Of a DNA stretch of 50,192 nucleotides, positions 9,307 through 46,708 are shown piece after piece. A model generated the notes under the pieces. That model was not told the origin of the DNA. It saw only the letters and a program-made list of their open reading frames with translations, and did not search any database. Source of the DNA: Opitutia bacterium (GTDB taxonomy: Bacteria; Verrucomicrobiota; Verrucomicrobiia; Opitutales; Opitutaceae). Numbering within the stretch: the first letter of the stretch is position 1; each line of letters starts with the position of its first letter. Made by a program: the position numbers and the translations under genes. The stretch covers positions 1 through 50,192 of the forward strand of contig CANJCM010000029.1 in assembly GCA_947472765.1 (NCBI GenBank), given 5' to 3'.

Positions 9307-10745
9307 TCGATCTCATCCTGCCGTTCCGGCTCTGGGGCGCCTCGCGCCGATTCTACTTTGCCGGCTTCGGCCTTTTGGTGAGCGCTCTTGCCCTGGCGGC
9401 GCCTCTTGCCCGGGCTGCGACTTTGCCGGAACTCTGGTTGGAGCGGCAAAAGTCCGTCGTGGCGGTGGAATACGTGACCGAGACCGAGGCCGATCGTCGC
9501 CCGACGGTGACGATGGGCACCGTGATCGATTCGATCGGAACCATCATCCTCCCTTCGAACGCGATCGACCCGCGCGCCGCCACCTGGCAGTTGAAGGACT
9601 TCAAGGTTTACGCCCCGGGGGACGTCAACGGCACCCCGGCCGATTATCTCGGGCAGGACGCCTACACCGGCTGGCATTTCGTCCGCGTCAATGAGTCGCT
9701 GCGTGCCCGGCTGGTGCCGGTGACCGCGTTCGCTCCAGCGGGATCAGGAAAGGCGCCCGCTTTGGCGGACTTCGTTTGGGGGATCGGCTTGCGGACGAAG
9801 GACGAGGATTTCGCACCGTACATCATGCAGAGCCACCTCGCGCTCATTCAGTCGCTGCCCCAGCGCACGGGTATCTCCCAGCAGGAGGTCGCCGCGCCGG
9901 GACTACCCGTCTTCGATCGCGACGGCGCGTTCGTCGGCCTGGCCGCGTCTTCTTTTGGTCAGAGTTATCTGCAATTCGCCCCGGGAAACCGCGGCGCGCC
10001 GGTATTGTTGATCAACGTCGAGGAGAGCAGCGCCTTCATCCTCGCCGACGAGGTTCTTCCTTATCTCCAGCGAATCCCGAAGCAGGTCTCCGGGCGCCCG
10101 CTCGCGTGGCTCGGGGCGTATGGACTCGAGCCCATGGATCGGGACGTGGCGAAGTTTTTGAAACTCAGCTCCCAATCCGGCGCCGTCGTGAGCGAGGTGC
10201 TCGAGGGCAGTCCCGCCGAGGTCGCGGGCCTCAAGGCGCGCGACATCATTCTCGCGATCGACGGGAAGCCGTTGCCACAATTGAAACCCGATCGCGTGGT
10301 CGTCACCTATATCGAGCGCGAAGTGGACCGGCGGGCTCCGGGTGACTCCCTGACGGTCTCCGTGCTGCGCGGCAGCGAGCGGCTCGAACTCAACGTGAAA
10401 TTGGGTGACGAGCCGAAGCTGATGCGCGAGGCCGATCGGAAGTATTTTGATCGGATCGGATTCACCGCCCGGGAGTTCGTCTACGGCGACGCCGTGGAGC
10501 GGCGGGTCAAGGCCGGGGCGCAACCCGGTGTCATCGTCCATTTCGTCAAGGCGAGCAGTCCCATCGCGATCGCCGGTCTTCGCCAGGAGGATTGGATTCG
10601 CGAGATTGACGGCGTCGAGGTCCACACCTTCACCGAGGCCTCGGCCAAGCTCGCAGAGATCGAGCGGGACGAGGCGCGTGCCGAAGTGGTGCTCCTCGTC
10701 AGCCGTGGTGGAGACACCGCCGTGCTTCGAGTCAAACTGAAGTAG
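9303..10745 (+). CDS. Protease-dead HtrA paralogue with two PDZ domains
   Basis: A 480-residue exported protein (signal segment about 16-38, ending PLARAAT) with the same layout as the upstream protease: a trypsin-like fold, then PDZ domains (around VLEGSPAEVAGLKARD and VKASSPIAIAGLRQED). The catalytic positions are gone. Where the active enzyme has LTNAHVV this one has ILPSNAI; the segment matching [10 protein letters not shown] reads YTGWHFVRVN; the serine region reads VAAPGLPVFD in place of NPGNSGGPL. It therefore cannot work as a serine protease but could bind peptides. The ATGA overlap with the active protease argues for production in fixed ratio and perhaps a mixed complex. No other enzyme motif is seen. 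The pseudoprotease reading follows from the motif comparison; the complex is inference. Confidence 0.85.
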   Translation: MIDLILPFRLWGASRRFYFAGFGLLVSALALAAPLARAATLPELWLERQKSVVAVEYVTETEADRRPTVTMGTVIDSIGTIILPSNAIDPRAATWQLKDFKVYAPGDVNGTPADYLGQDAYTGWHFVRVNESLRARLVPVTAFAPAGSGKAPALADFVWGIGLRTKDEDFAPYIMQSHLALIQSLPQRTGISQQEVAAPGLPVFDRDGAFVGLAASSFGQSYLQFAPGNRGAPVLLINVEESSAFILADEVLPYLQRIPKQVSGRPLAWLGAYGLEPMDRDVAKFLKLSSQSGAVVSEVLEGSPAEVAGLKARDIILAIDGKPLPQLKPDRVVVTYIEREVDRRAPGDSLTVSVLRGSERLELNVKLGDEPKLMREADRKYFDRIGFTAREFVYGDAVERRVKAGAQPGVIVHFVKASSPIAIAGLRQEDWIREIDGVEVHTFTEASAKLAEIERDEARAEVVLLVSRGGDTAVLRVKLK

Positions 10746-37279: not shown

Positions 37280-37358
37280 CGGCGTGACCCTTTCCGTGAG
37301 GACAGGGGCTTCTCCATCGCTGCGCCTAAAGTCGTCCCGCCGCTCACGGAGCGGGCGA
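37280..37358 (+). repeat. 79-bp dispersed repeat, copy A
   Basis: Matches the reverse complement of 39678-39756 without gaps at about 67 of 79 positions (counted by eye). The best conserved ends are CGGCGTG on the left and GCTCACGGAGCGGGCGA on the right. It lies in the space between guaB and menC. Confidence 0.82.
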
Positions 37359-37413
37359 CGAAGCCACCGCTTTGCCCTTTGCGGACCGGTGGCGACTGTG
37401 TTGAAAGTCCCGT

Positions 37414-39644: not shown

Positions 39645-39677
39645 ACCGCCCTCCGATAGGTTCCCCGTTGGGTTTTC

Positions 39678-39756
39678 TCGCCCGCTCCGTGAGCAGTGGG
39701 ACGACTTGATGCGAAGCGATCGAGAAATCCCTGCCCTCACGGGCAGGGCCACGCCG
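39678..39756 (-). repeat. 79-bp dispersed repeat, copy B (inverted to copy A)
   Basis: Opposite orientation to copy A at 37280-37358, about 67 of 79 bases equal, no gaps. It stands 33 bases after menE. Together the copies enclose menC-menE. Within this copy an extra small hairpin, CCCTGCCC / GGGCAGGG around 39729-39748, is seen. Confidence 0.82.
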
Positions 39757-39935: not shown

Positions 39936-41102
39936 ATGAAACTGCCCCTGTTCCTCGCCTTCCTGAACTCGTCCCGCCCGATCCATCTGCTCGCGGCTCT
40001 CGTCTCAATTGCGTTTGCGGCGCCAGCCGCAAACGCGGCGCAGCCCGAGCCGTTGAAGCGTTATTTTTATGCCGGCGTGCCTGACGGCGCGCAGGACGCA
40101 ATTACGCCGCATGCGCCCGGCATCGCGGTCTACGATATCGACGACGGCCACAAGTTCGTCCGCTTCATTCCGATTCCGCAGTTCAGCCCGCCCAACGCGA
40201 AGGGCGTGAGCGCGCGGCCCATGGGACTGCGCGGCCTCTGCGTCAGCCTTGTGAATCATGCCGCGTATTACACCTCGGAGAACGGCCTGCTCGGCGCGTT
40301 CGATCTCGAGACCGAGAAGGTGTTGTGGGAAGTGAACCTCCCCGAGGGCGCCGACCGCGCGGACATCACGCTCGACGGCAAGAAGCTCTACGTGCCGACC
40401 GGCTGGTGGGATCGCGGGCAGGGCGGTGGGATGTTCATCGTCGACGCCTCCAACGGCAAAATCCTGAAGCGCGTCTCGATTGGACCCGGCGCGCACAACA
40501 GCTTCGTCACGCTCGACGGCTCCCACGTGCTCATCTCAGGCATCGAGTGGATCGCGATGTTCCGCACCTCGGATGACGAAAAGATTATGTTCCTGAGCGA
40601 TGTCGGCGATGGCGGCATGTTTCCGTTCACCGTCGATAGTCAGATGAAGCGGGCCTATCTCAGCCGCACGAAGCATGTCGGTTTCGAAATCGTCGATCTG
40701 AAGCTCGGCGAAAAAGTCGTCACCGTGCAGGACGGCTTACCCCCGATTCCGCGTCGGACGCATGGCGCGGCGCTCACGCCTGACGAGACGGAACTCTGGA
40801 TCAGCGACCAGGCCGGCAAGCGCCTCATCGTGTACGACAACAAGGTGAGCCCGCCGGTGAAGAAGCAGGAAATCAAACTCATCCGCGACGGACATGGCTG
40901 GATCTTGTTCAGCATGGATGGCAAATACGCCTGGACCCACACCGAGGAAGTGATCGACCCGAAGACGAAACAGGTTGTCGCGATCCTGCGCGACGAAACG
41001 GGCAAGCCGCTCGCGAGTTCGAAGTACTTCGAGATTCACCTGCGCGGAAAGAAAGTTGTGGCCGTCGGAAGCCAGTTTCCGCTCGGGCGCGCCACGAAGT
41101 GA
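39936..41102 (+). CDS. Exported YVTN-type beta-propeller protein
   Basis: A 388-residue protein with a signal peptide (about 1-35, ending AAPAANAAQ). The body has repeated blades of the YVTN/NHL kind: GIAVYDIDDGHKFVRFIPI, GLLGAFDLETEKVLWEVNL, ADITLDGKKLYVPTGWWD, GGMFIVDASNGKILKRVSI, and so on through RRTHGAALTPDETELWISDQ. Such propellers act as scaffolds or, in quinoprotein-like cases, bind cofactors; no PQQ-binding disulphide or metal set is seen. The stop and the start of the following cytochrome gene overlap (TGATG), so a periplasmic complex of propeller and cytochrome is likely. The ATG at 39936 is chosen because the signal peptide follows at once. Confidence 0.86.
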   Translation: MKLPLFLAFLNSSRPIHLLAALVSIAFAAPAANAAQPEPLKRYFYAGVPDGAQDAITPHAPGIAVYDIDDGHKFVRFIPIPQFSPPNAKGVSARPMGLRGLCVSLVNHAAYYTSENGLLGAFDLETEKVLWEVNLPEGADRADITLDGKKLYVPTGWWDRGQGGGMFIVDASNGKILKRVSIGPGAHNSFVTLDGSHVLISGIEWIAMFRTSDDEKIMFLSDVGDGGMFPFTVDSQMKRAYLSRTKHVGFEIVDLKLGEKVVTVQDGLPPIPRRTHGAALTPDETELWISDQAGKRLIVYDNKVSPPVKKQEIKLIRDGHGWILFSMDGKYAWTHTEEVIDPKTKQVVAILRDETGKPLASSKYFEIHLRGKKVVAVGSQFPLGRATK

Positions 41103-41614
41103 TGAGCCGGGCGGGGTGGCCGTGCTTCGCGGCGGGCGTGTTGCTCGCCGCGGGCTGCTCTTCGTTTTCGGATCGAAAGGTCGAGCTCGCTGTGTCCGCG
41201 CCCGCGCCAGCGGTCCCCACGATGCCGGTCGTGGCGGGTGCAATTTCCAGGTCCGCCCTGCCGATCGAGCCGCCTTCGAACGCCGAGCTCTGGCAACTGA
41301 GCCGCGACTCTGAAGCCGTGAGCGCGGGCCAGAAGGCCTTCACGCTTTCTTCATGCCGGACCTGTCACGGCCCGACCCTCACGGGCGGCGCCGCGCCGAA
41401 TCTGGTCGACCAACGCTGGTTGCACGGCGGGACGCCGAGTGAGGTGTTTCAGACGATCGTCCGCGGCGTTCCCTCCAGAGGCATGCCGACCTGGGGTCCG
41501 GCGCTCGACCCGACCGTGATCAAGCAAATCGTCGCCTTCATTTTCAGCCACCACCGCGAAGGCGAACCGATCGAAAAGCAGGAGTCGTTCACGCCGTTCA
41601 CGCCGGTGTACTGA
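41102..41614 (+). CDS. Cytochrome c lipoprotein, paralogue of the 30.2-kb cytochrome
   Basis: A 170-residue lipoprotein: signal peptide with lipobox LLAAGC (Cys19 as lipid anchor), a Pro/Ala-rich spacer to about 60, and a single haem domain with Cys85-x2-Cys88-His89 in SSCRTCHGPTL. The likely axial methionine is in RGMPTWGPAL. The region from LWQLSRD to HHREGEPIE aligns with the cytochrome at 30244-30990 over about 100 residues, with the same NLVDQRWLHGGTPSEV block. It is translated together with the propeller gene (overlap TGATG; a GTG at 41099 is another possible start). It should be anchored to a membrane facing the periplasm. Confidence 0.9.
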   Translation: MSRAGWPCFAAGVLLAAGCSSFSDRKVELAVSAPAPAVPTMPVVAGAISRSALPIEPPSNAELWQLSRDSEAVSAGQKAFTLSSCRTCHGPTLTGGAAPNLVDQRWLHGGTPSEVFQTIVRGVPSRGMPTWGPALDPTVIKQIVAFIFSHHREGEPIEKQESFTPFTPVY

Positions 41615-41648
41615 TCGCAAAGATCGAGCCGGGGTTGGCCGCAAAAAC

Positions 41649-41939
41649 GCACAAAAGGCGCAAAAACCAATCCACCAATCCCAAGGCAGTCGCGCACGAG
41701 GTCTACTTCAATAAACGTCATCGTAGGGGCGCCCCTCGTGTGCGCCCGTCTCATTCTTGGGACCACGCAGACCTCGTTCGCGCCGGGTTGCCCCGCTCGG
41801 ACTGCGGCCCCGCGTCTCCCTGAACCCCTACCGGTTCTCCGACGGCTCGAGCAGTTGACGGGCCGAAGGATTGGAGTCGCGCAGAGGAGTTCCGCGCGTC
41901 CACGCCCGTTTCGTGGATTGGTTTTTGCACTTTTTGTGC
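41649..41939. repeat. Long inverted repeat enclosing nested repeats
   Basis: The 27-base arm at 41649-41675 (starts GCACAAAAGGCGCAAAAACC) and the reverse complement of 41913-41939 agree at 25 of 27 positions. About 240 bases lie between the arms. Inside, a second pair with CGCGCACGAGGTCT (near 41690-41705) and AGACCTCGTTCGCGC (near 41769-41784) is also inverted. No transposase is present. This is the main content of the 509-base space 41615-42123. Confidence 0.72.
41721..41749 (+). repeat. CGTAGGGGCG-type dispersed repeat, copy 1
   Basis: TCGTAGGGGCG followed by CCTCGTG and GCGCCC. The same word set occurs inverted at 46621-46648, about 26 of 29 positions equal. Confidence 0.65.
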
Positions 41940-41978
41940 TGCTGTACCCTCGAATTGCCCATTTCCAGGAGGATTTTG

Positions 41979-42048
41979 AACAGGAAGATCGGGGCGTTCG
42001 GGAAGTGGGCGGAACGGACCTCTCCCCGATCTTCCCGGCCTTCCTGTT
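41979..42048. repeat. Large hairpin between two convergent genes
   Basis: AACAGGAAGATCGGGG (41979-41994) pairs with CCCCGATCTTCC (42024-42035) and, after a 5-base bulge, TTCCTGTT (42041-42048). It lies between the convergent cytochrome and aldo/keto reductase genes and could act as a bidirectional terminator or be a repeated palindrome. Confidence 0.6.
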
Positions 42049-42123
42049 TAATCCGGCTTGGTCACCTTTGGCTGCGGCTCCGCCGTGCTATGCCTTTTTC
42101 GGCCAACTCCGGCCCGGGTCCGC

Positions 42124-43113
42124 TCAGATGTGGCCGACGACCGCGTGCGGCACGTAGGCTTCATCGAGGAACGTACGTTCCTCCGGCGACAATTTGAAAT
42201 CGAGCGCCGCGACGGCCTCCTCAAGGTGACCCGGTTTCGACGCCCCGATGATCGGCGCGGTGATGACCGGCTGGTGCAGGACCCAAGCGAGCGCAATTCG
42301 CGCCGGCGGCACGCCGCGTTTGGCGGCGAGTTCGTTGACACGGTCAACGACGCGACGGTCCGCGTCGCGGGTGCGGTTGAAGAGCATCTTGCTCACCTCG
42401 TCCGTGTGATCGCGATCGGTCGCAGCCTCGTTTGTCCACGGGCGGGCGAGGCGACCGCGGGCGAGCGGGCTCCACGGAATGACTGCGATGCCCTCGGCCG
42501 CGCACAGCTTGTGCATCTCACGCTCTTCTTCCCGGTAGAGCAGGTTGTAGTAGTCCTGCATTGAGACAAAACGCGTCCACCCCCGCTGACGGGAAACATT
42601 TAGCGCGGTACAGAACTGCCACGCGTGCATCGACGACGCGCCGATGTACCGCGCCTTGCCGGCTTTCACGACATCGTGCAGCGCCTCGAGCGTCTCCTCG
42701 ATGGGCGTCTCATAGTCCCAGCGGTGGATCTGGTACAAGTCGACGTAGTCGGTGCCGAGCCGGGTCAGGCTCGCGTCAATCGCCGTCATGATCGCCTTGC
42801 GCGAGAGACCCTTCAGGTTCGGGACGTCCCGGCCCCACGGATAAAACACCTTCGTGGCGATCACGACTTCGTCGCGCCGCGCAAAGTCCCGCAACGCCCG
42901 CCCGACGATTTCCTCGCTCGAGCCGTCCGAGTAGCTGTTCGACGTATCGAAAAAATTAATGCCCAGCTCGATGGCCTGCTTGAGAAAGGGCCGGCTGACG
43001 TCCTCGGGCAAGGTCCACGAATGCTTGCCGCGCCCCGGTTCGCCGTAAGTCATGCAGCCCAGACACAGCCGCGACACCTTCAACCCCGTCGAACCGAAGC
43101 GAACGTAGTTCAT
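42124..43113 (-). CDS. Aldo/keto reductase
   Basis: A 329-residue NADPH-dependent oxidoreductase with a TIM barrel. The active-site set is visible: Asp and Tyr in FDTSNSYSDG, Lys in VVIATKVF, and His in YQIHRWDYETPIEETLEAL. The cofactor end has PIIGASKPGHLEEAV. The LGCMTYGEP and WTLPEDVSRPFLKQAIELG segments put it near the AKR groups of YajO/YccK-like enzymes, which act on various aldehydes and sugars. The substrate is not known. It is convergent with the cytochrome operon, and the intergenic space between holds inverted repeats. The ATG at 43113 agrees with the conserved MNYVRFGSTGLKVS start. Confidence 0.93.
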   Translation of the reverse strand: MNYVRFGSTGLKVSRLCLGCMTYGEPGRGKHSWTLPEDVSRPFLKQAIELGINFFDTSNSYSDGSSEEIVGRALRDFARRDEVVIATKVFYPWGRDVPNLKGLSRKAIMTAIDASLTRLGTDYVDLYQIHRWDYETPIEETLEALHDVVKAGKARYIGASSMHAWQFCTALNVSRQRGWTRFVSMQDYYNLLYREEEREMHKLCAAEGIAVIPWSPLARGRLARPWTNEAATDRDHTDEVSKMLFNRTRDADRRVVDRVNELAAKRGVPPARIALAWVLHQPVITAPIIGASKPGHLEEAVAALDFKLSPEERTFLDEAYVPHAVVGHI

Positions 43114-45893: not shown

Positions 45894-46159
45894 CCCCCAA
45901 TCAATCGCACAGAAGGTCAATCCAAGGACGGGCCAAGGTCAGCCTGGTAACGACGATCAATTCCGGCTCAACCCGGCTCGATCGTTGCGGCGAGATGAGC
46001 CTGAAGCCATGAAGCCAGGAATCGGAGACTTCGGGGTTGAACTACCGAGTGCACGGACACATCCGTTGAGGGAGTCCTTGGTTTTCCTTGGCTCGACTTC
46101 TGTGCAACGGTTTGGGGCCAGAACAAATCCCGTTCGATCGCACAGAAGGGCGAGCCAAG
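45894..46159. repeat. GCACAGAAG-type repeat cluster with hairpin
   Basis: The 372-base space 45794-46165 holds three related words: ATCGCACAGAAGG at 45902, its inverse ACTTCTGTGC at 46096-46105, and ATCGCACAGAAGGGCGAG at 46137-46154. The last two form a hairpin: CTTGGCTCG..CTTCTGTGC (46087-46105) pairs with GCACAGAAGGGCGAGCCAAG (46140-46159), 34-base loop. GAGCCTGAAGCCA also occurs twice as a direct repeat (about 45868 and 45998). No gene is visible in this space. Confidence 0.6.
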
Positions 46160-46648: not shown

Positions 46649-46708
46649 AGCGGGGCCGCAATTGGTTGAACACGAATCCAACGTTCGCGCCGGACCGGCG
46701 CGAACGTG

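Follow-up and report, generated by a model that had tools for sequence, protein, structure and literature searches.

The sequence examined here is a window of 50,192 nt (the whole stretch of DNA that was analyzed) on contig C29 of an Opitutia bacterium of the family Opitutaceae, whose genome comprises 4.97 Mb in 157 contigs. A block of repeats occupies the 509-nt gap (41615-42123) between the 3' ends of two convergent genes. One of these genes encodes a cytochrome c-domain protein (41099-41614, forward strand) and ends 13 nt before the block, and the other encodes an aldo/keto reductase (42124-43113, reverse strand). No match in the window exceeded the gathering score of any Rfam family.

The outer parts of the block are two arms, which are opposed copies of a site of about 35 nt made of three similar 9-10-nt units, named module A. 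The left arm (41628-41673, forward strand) carries its three units as the core GCCGCAAAAA-CGCACAAAA-GGCGCAAAAA at 41638-41665, followed by CCAATCC. The inner part of the right arm is an inverted match to it at 41910-41939 (reverse strand). A preliminary description of the locus had noted these inverted arms, and we confirmed them: positions 41649-41678 and 41910-41939 are complementary at 27 of 30 positions, with 231 nt between them. This score of 27 is the best for any 30-nt inverted match in the gap, compared with a maximum of 21 across 300 dinucleotide shuffles. Two features were absent from that description, a larger inverted pair (41976-42008 and 42019-42051) and the continuation of the right arm beyond it, GCCTTTTTCGGCCAACTCCGG, at 42092-42113 (reverse strand). 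The right arm is a split copy of module A, consisting of 41910-41939, an insert at 41940-42091, and then 42092-42113.

The same description had taken positions 41649-41939 for one element of about 290 bp. Its view of the sequence as non-coding, repeat-rich, foldable and unlike ordinary intergenic sequence agrees with our analysis; folded as single-stranded DNA, the region 41630-41945 has a z-score of -3.74, and none of 100 shuffles was equally stable. The notion of a single element did not hold, as among 70 matches to the gap in the organism's own genome, self included, none but self covers both arms. What recurs is pieces of the block, namely module A on the left, the REP-like middle and, most often, module C/F on the right, from about 41939 onward. 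The repeat said to be shared with 46.6 kb is just a two-copy match (41761-41786 and 46668-46693, 77% over 26 nt); the window contains 25 direct-repeat families, this one included, of which many are similar in quality, and we take the match as chance.

Other repeats were also observed in the window. An 86-nt inverted pair (37280-37365 and 39671-39756, 83% identity) flanks a menC-like gene and an AMP-binding gene, and contains words from two further palindromic repeat families that are frequent in the genome. A 31-nt direct repeat (45896-45926 and 46129-46159, 81%) lies around ATCGCACAGAAGG.

Repeats between and within the arms

The stretch between the arms holds a GTAG-tagged REP, GTAGGGGCGCCCCTCGTGTGCGCCC, at 41723-41747 (forward strand), in which the GTAG tag adjoins a short stem-loop. 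The nested inverted pair of the preliminary description proved real and longer than claimed, and flanks this REP on either side; its left half, CGCGCACGAGGTCT (41691-41704, forward strand), and its right half, AGACCTCGTTCGCG (41769-41782, reverse strand), match at 93% of 14 nt. The left half is a REP-like flank, and similar flanks lie beside arms in three other loci (L021, L028 and L007). A further segment, CGTCCACGCCCG at 41898-41909 (forward strand), is similar to the tail of another REP family, GTAGGGGCGGGGCTCGTCCACGCCCG, and is assigned to it weakly.

The REP at 41723-41747 belongs to a family of 273 copies in the genome (at most three mismatches to the consensus), compared with none for a reversed-pattern control. 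The family is intergenic, with GTAGGGGC occurring 44 times in 94 kb of intergenic sequence and 3 times in 703 kb of coding sequence in the sample analyzed. GTAG REPs with inverted REP-like flanks presumably owe their spread to RAYT transposases. Seven RAYT-like transposase genes of the genome match Y1_Tnp above the Pfam cut-off; in loci L083 and L084 the Y1_Tnp matches have an exact B-type REP upstream, and those in L088 and L089 are flanked on both sides by other REP types. Two of the genes were scanned with the NCBIfam model for REP-associated transposases and scored 51.7 and 65.9 bits, against a curated cut-off of 80.

In light of the passages of Di Nocera et al. (2013, PMC3733652) that describe GTAG REPs, REP dimers and RAYTs, this layer is ordinary. 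In the same passages, Opitutus terrae stands out for its strong enrichment in GTAG repeats, and REPs inserted within palindromes are reported for some species. Like the GTAG REPs described there, the sequence at 41723-41747 combines a GTAG tag and a stem with a high copy number and inverted neighbours, whereas the module A arms are themselves not GTAG palindromes of the kind portrayed in those passages. Many further families of palindromic repeats are present between the genes in an 800-kb sample of the genome, with 12-mer counts of about 8-27 each; in some of them GTAG or GGAG stands at the foot of the stem.

The insert that splits the right arm (41940-42091, forward strand) is a hairpin repeat of about 152 nt, module C/F, which contains the larger inverted pair. 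Fifteen C/F copies with both ends were found in the loci of this genome, of which 10 lie inside module A. The insertion point is constant in these 10, where TTTTTGCGCCTTTTG(T/C)(A/G)C precedes the insert and GCCTTTTTGCGGCCAA follows it, and a C/F copy of the relative G004 (L091) lies inside module A at the same fixed point. Since intact module A is common in the genomes of the family, insertion of C/F would be the simpler order of events. The other five full copies lie outside module A; one of them (L016) adjoins an AGAT-type three-unit repeat, as does a C/F copy of which one end was found (L008).

Repeats also accumulate elsewhere in the genome. Long ordered series of them lie in the intergenic gaps of contig C77 between 9200 and 19200 (L071), where a gene at 9637-10719 lies between 137-nt inverted copies (91%) and the coding density of the contig is 0.655, compared with about 0.80-0.90 in the sampled contigs C1-C10. 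We considered integron-like arrays for this contig, on which repeats lie 1.4-2.5 kb apart, and set them aside; by eye, the predicted proteins suggest ordinary functions, with no integrase among them. Repeat copies also lie at or near the ends of contigs C50, C123, C73 and C75, so the repeats probably broke the assembly.

Three-unit arms in the genome and its relatives

The core of module A follows the pattern GCCGCAAARANGCRCARAAGGCGCAARA, in which three units ending in CAAAA or similar are spaced 10 and 9 nt. Fourteen copies with at most two mismatches are present in the genome of origin. At the same threshold, module A occurs in 22 of the 240 sampled genomes of the phylum; the family, with 21 genomes sampled, accounts for 12 of these 22. 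The reversed pattern gave no hits among the matches listed. The contigs that carry the two nearest orthologues of the cytochrome gene end directly beside it and offer no empty counterpart of this locus. As a junction motif, CCAATCC is only mildly enriched (38 occurrences compared with 20.6 expected in an intergenic sample).

According to the preliminary description, arms that occur separately all over the genome and never together would be unrelated short repeats. The first part of this statement describes most module A copies of the genome, which are single, but facing pairs do recur. One is found in the same genome (C34:19419/19916). The relative G007 has 54 copies (at most three mismatches) that form 12 neighbour pairs within 400 bp; all 12 are facing with GCCGC outward, and no other geometry was found. 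Several of the G007 pairs have a common offset near 117 nt.

The frame of module A, RRCC-RC-nnAn-Gn repeated, recurs in other intergenic repeats, in which the four-letter core varies (e.g. AGAT, GGAT, TAAT, GAAA and GGAG). GGAG-core arms are present elsewhere in the same genome. A scan for this frame in 800 kb of the genome gave 20 intergenic matches compared with 1 for the reversed control, and 36 compared with 28 in coding sequence, a count close to its control. In 400 kb of the genome G029, the corresponding numbers are 27 and 4 for intergenic sequence and 43 and 21 for coding sequence, and the excess of coding matches over the control means that the motif scan has a background there. We also observed a 20-kb region of G029 (L214, C1:4500001-4520000) that concentrates 13 intergenic three-unit matches, whose cores are of several kinds.

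An exact scan of named genomes with the pattern AACCAC-nnATG-nACAC-nnATG-nACAC-nnATG-nA found at least 119 stretches, 80 of which were listed and used. The listed stretches come from Verrucomicrobia, Planctomycetes, Acidobacteria, Latescibacterota, Cyanobacteria, several proteobacterial groups, Anaerolineales, Flavobacteriales and others, and their sources are a few isolates as well as metagenome-assembled genomes; as a listed subset, they give no measure of phylum shares. These 80 loci contain 82 arms, which were picked irrespective of partners; the core letters were masked during the detection of partners. Among these listed arms, partners within 400 bp are facing in 39 cases, mirror in 5 and direct in 8 and 8, compared with 0 and 0 for reversed-arm controls; a first partner search (22 of 33 letters) on the same listed matches gave 40 facing, 6 mirror, and 8 and 9 direct partners.

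The masked core letters of partners agree at 4.97 of 6 positions among the matches listed, compared with 3.0 after permutation (0 of 2000 permutations). As a given genome may favour certain cores, we repeated this comparison within single genomes. The agreement persisted in G029 (8 pairs, 0.66 compared with 0.46, 2 of 5000), where facing neighbours (8) are fewer than direct ones (11) and the reversed control is sizeable (16 compared with 49 arms). In the genome of origin, the 4 pairs available gave no significant agreement (0.58 compared with 0.56, 2266 of 5000). Given this absence, shared ancestry or a genome-wide fashion in cores may account for part of the core matching.

Paired arms as a probable base layer and their described relatives

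The modules and the numbers of their copies, the constant insertion point and the geometry of the arms are direct observations. We read the block with good confidence as dispersed non-coding repeats layered into a mosaic in a 3'-3' gap, in which the arms would serve as paired protein sites. The facing pair of three-unit arms is the feature that merits further attention, the REP mosaic being the ordinary part.

The arms could have arisen when the same short repeat inserted twice independently in a repeat-rich gap, the two copies facing each other by chance. This would suit the predominance of single copies in the genome and the tendency of repeats to pile up in the same gaps, but we consider it unlikely in view of the uniformly facing close pairs of G007 and of the excess of facing over mirror partners across phyla among the matches listed.

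A functional alternative, to which we give slightly less credit, regards the arm pair as a transcription terminator acting in both directions, or as an mRNA 3'-end element, for the two convergent genes. Both arms in the window lie just past stop codons with the same end toward the gene, and 3 terminator-like sites were predicted compared with 1.1 (sd 0.8) in shuffles, two of them touching arms; the large hairpin, however, has no such site. A gene-end rule fits the window arms and most copies of the same genome, and we dropped it as it fails in the relatives. There, with overlapping loci counted twice, 28 arms in tandem gaps point at a 3' end and 26 at a 5' end, and 14 arms lie in divergent gaps compared with 23 in convergent ones, which argues against a gene orientation of the arms.

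The remaining alternative takes up the MITE-like element of the preliminary description, as a single mobile unit of 290-490 bp whose terminal inverted repeats would be module A. A laxer arm criterion yielded 18 arm pairs of relatives, 16 of them from G007. The interiors of 15 pairs have nothing in common beyond chance matches of 11 nt, the other three having interiors under 25 nt, and no target-site duplication was detected in the 18 pairs (mean longest match of 3.33 nt compared with 3.13 nt in permuted flanks). Long inverted ends, the facing geometry and the common offset in G007 are consistent with such an element, yet it is very improbable considering the unrelated interiors, a target duplication not above permutation, a unit with no second copy in its own genome, and the RAYT loci examined, in none of which a transposase gene is flanked by module A.

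Under the layered reading, the base layer would be the facing pair of module A arms, each with its TTGGCCGC end outward. The second layer would be the GTAG REP with its inverted REP-like flanks between the arms, and the third the C/F hairpin repeat of about 152 nt that would have entered the right arm at a fixed point. The pair may represent two putative binding sites for one DNA-bending or DNA-bridging protein, and the identity of the repeated four-letter core may set which protein binds. Units spaced 9-10 nt apart would share one helix face. Since a single DNA strand of the block can fold arm on arm, a cruciform would be an alternative route of recognition. The REP and C/F copies would be passengers that use the gap, C/F perhaps with a taste for the arm.

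The paired class 2 sites of Geobacter metallireducens, as portrayed in the passages of Aklujkar et al. (2009, PMC2700814) devoted to them, are the closest described kind. These sites comprise three tandem repeats of TCTCCGTS[Y], are paired on opposite strands at variable distance, and have many intergenic copies; the authors guessed that a global regulator binds them, possibly IHF/HU. For the class 1 sites, the account reports insertion sequences located at a fixed distance. Module A likewise has three tandem repeats per site, and its paired sites lie on opposite strands with variable spacing. On its complementary strand, the class 2 repeat as given in that account has the frame CAC-GGAG, of which only the CRC-n4 frame is common with module A. 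The core of module A is AAAA/AAAG in 9-10-nt units and not GGAG, so that the published consensus does not fit. Further differences from the sites of that account are that module A occurs in another phylum, that REPs lie between its arms here and that a hairpin repeat splits one arm. With the same layout and another core, module A is a variant of the class 2 kind as described in those passages and not a member.

The AACCAC-nnATG or GCCGCAAA class was found described in the open-licence literature (texts without supplements) only in the Geobacter papers, which is weak evidence of absence elsewhere. Neisserial intergenic mosaic elements are arrays of interleaved short repeats between genes. The block resembles them in its own interleaved short repeats between genes, a likeness in layout. 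Mosaic intergenic regions in Neisseria are mentioned by Di Nocera et al. (2013, PMC3733652), in the passages considered here.

Tentatively, module A may be one variant of an unnamed, phylum-spanning class of paired intergenic sites. The arms of this class would consist of RRCC-RC-nnAn three times, about 9-10 nt apart, and would face each other over 30-400 nt of unrelated DNA, with a four-letter core that changes in concert in all six units. Such arms might be read by a protein family, or spread by an enzyme, whose specificity follows the core, and might provide a landing site for REPs and hairpin repeats.

In many bacterial genomes, a visible fraction of the sequence consists of short intergenic repeats, most of which lack an explanation. 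The small region described here resolves into layers that obey different rules. Its base layer is a pair-wise, concerted three-unit site found in isolates and metagenome-assembled genomes of many phyla, the concert being partly upheld within single genomes. This opens a direct question, namely which protein may hold two facing arms, and whether it would do so in chromosome folding, transcript ending or repeat movement.
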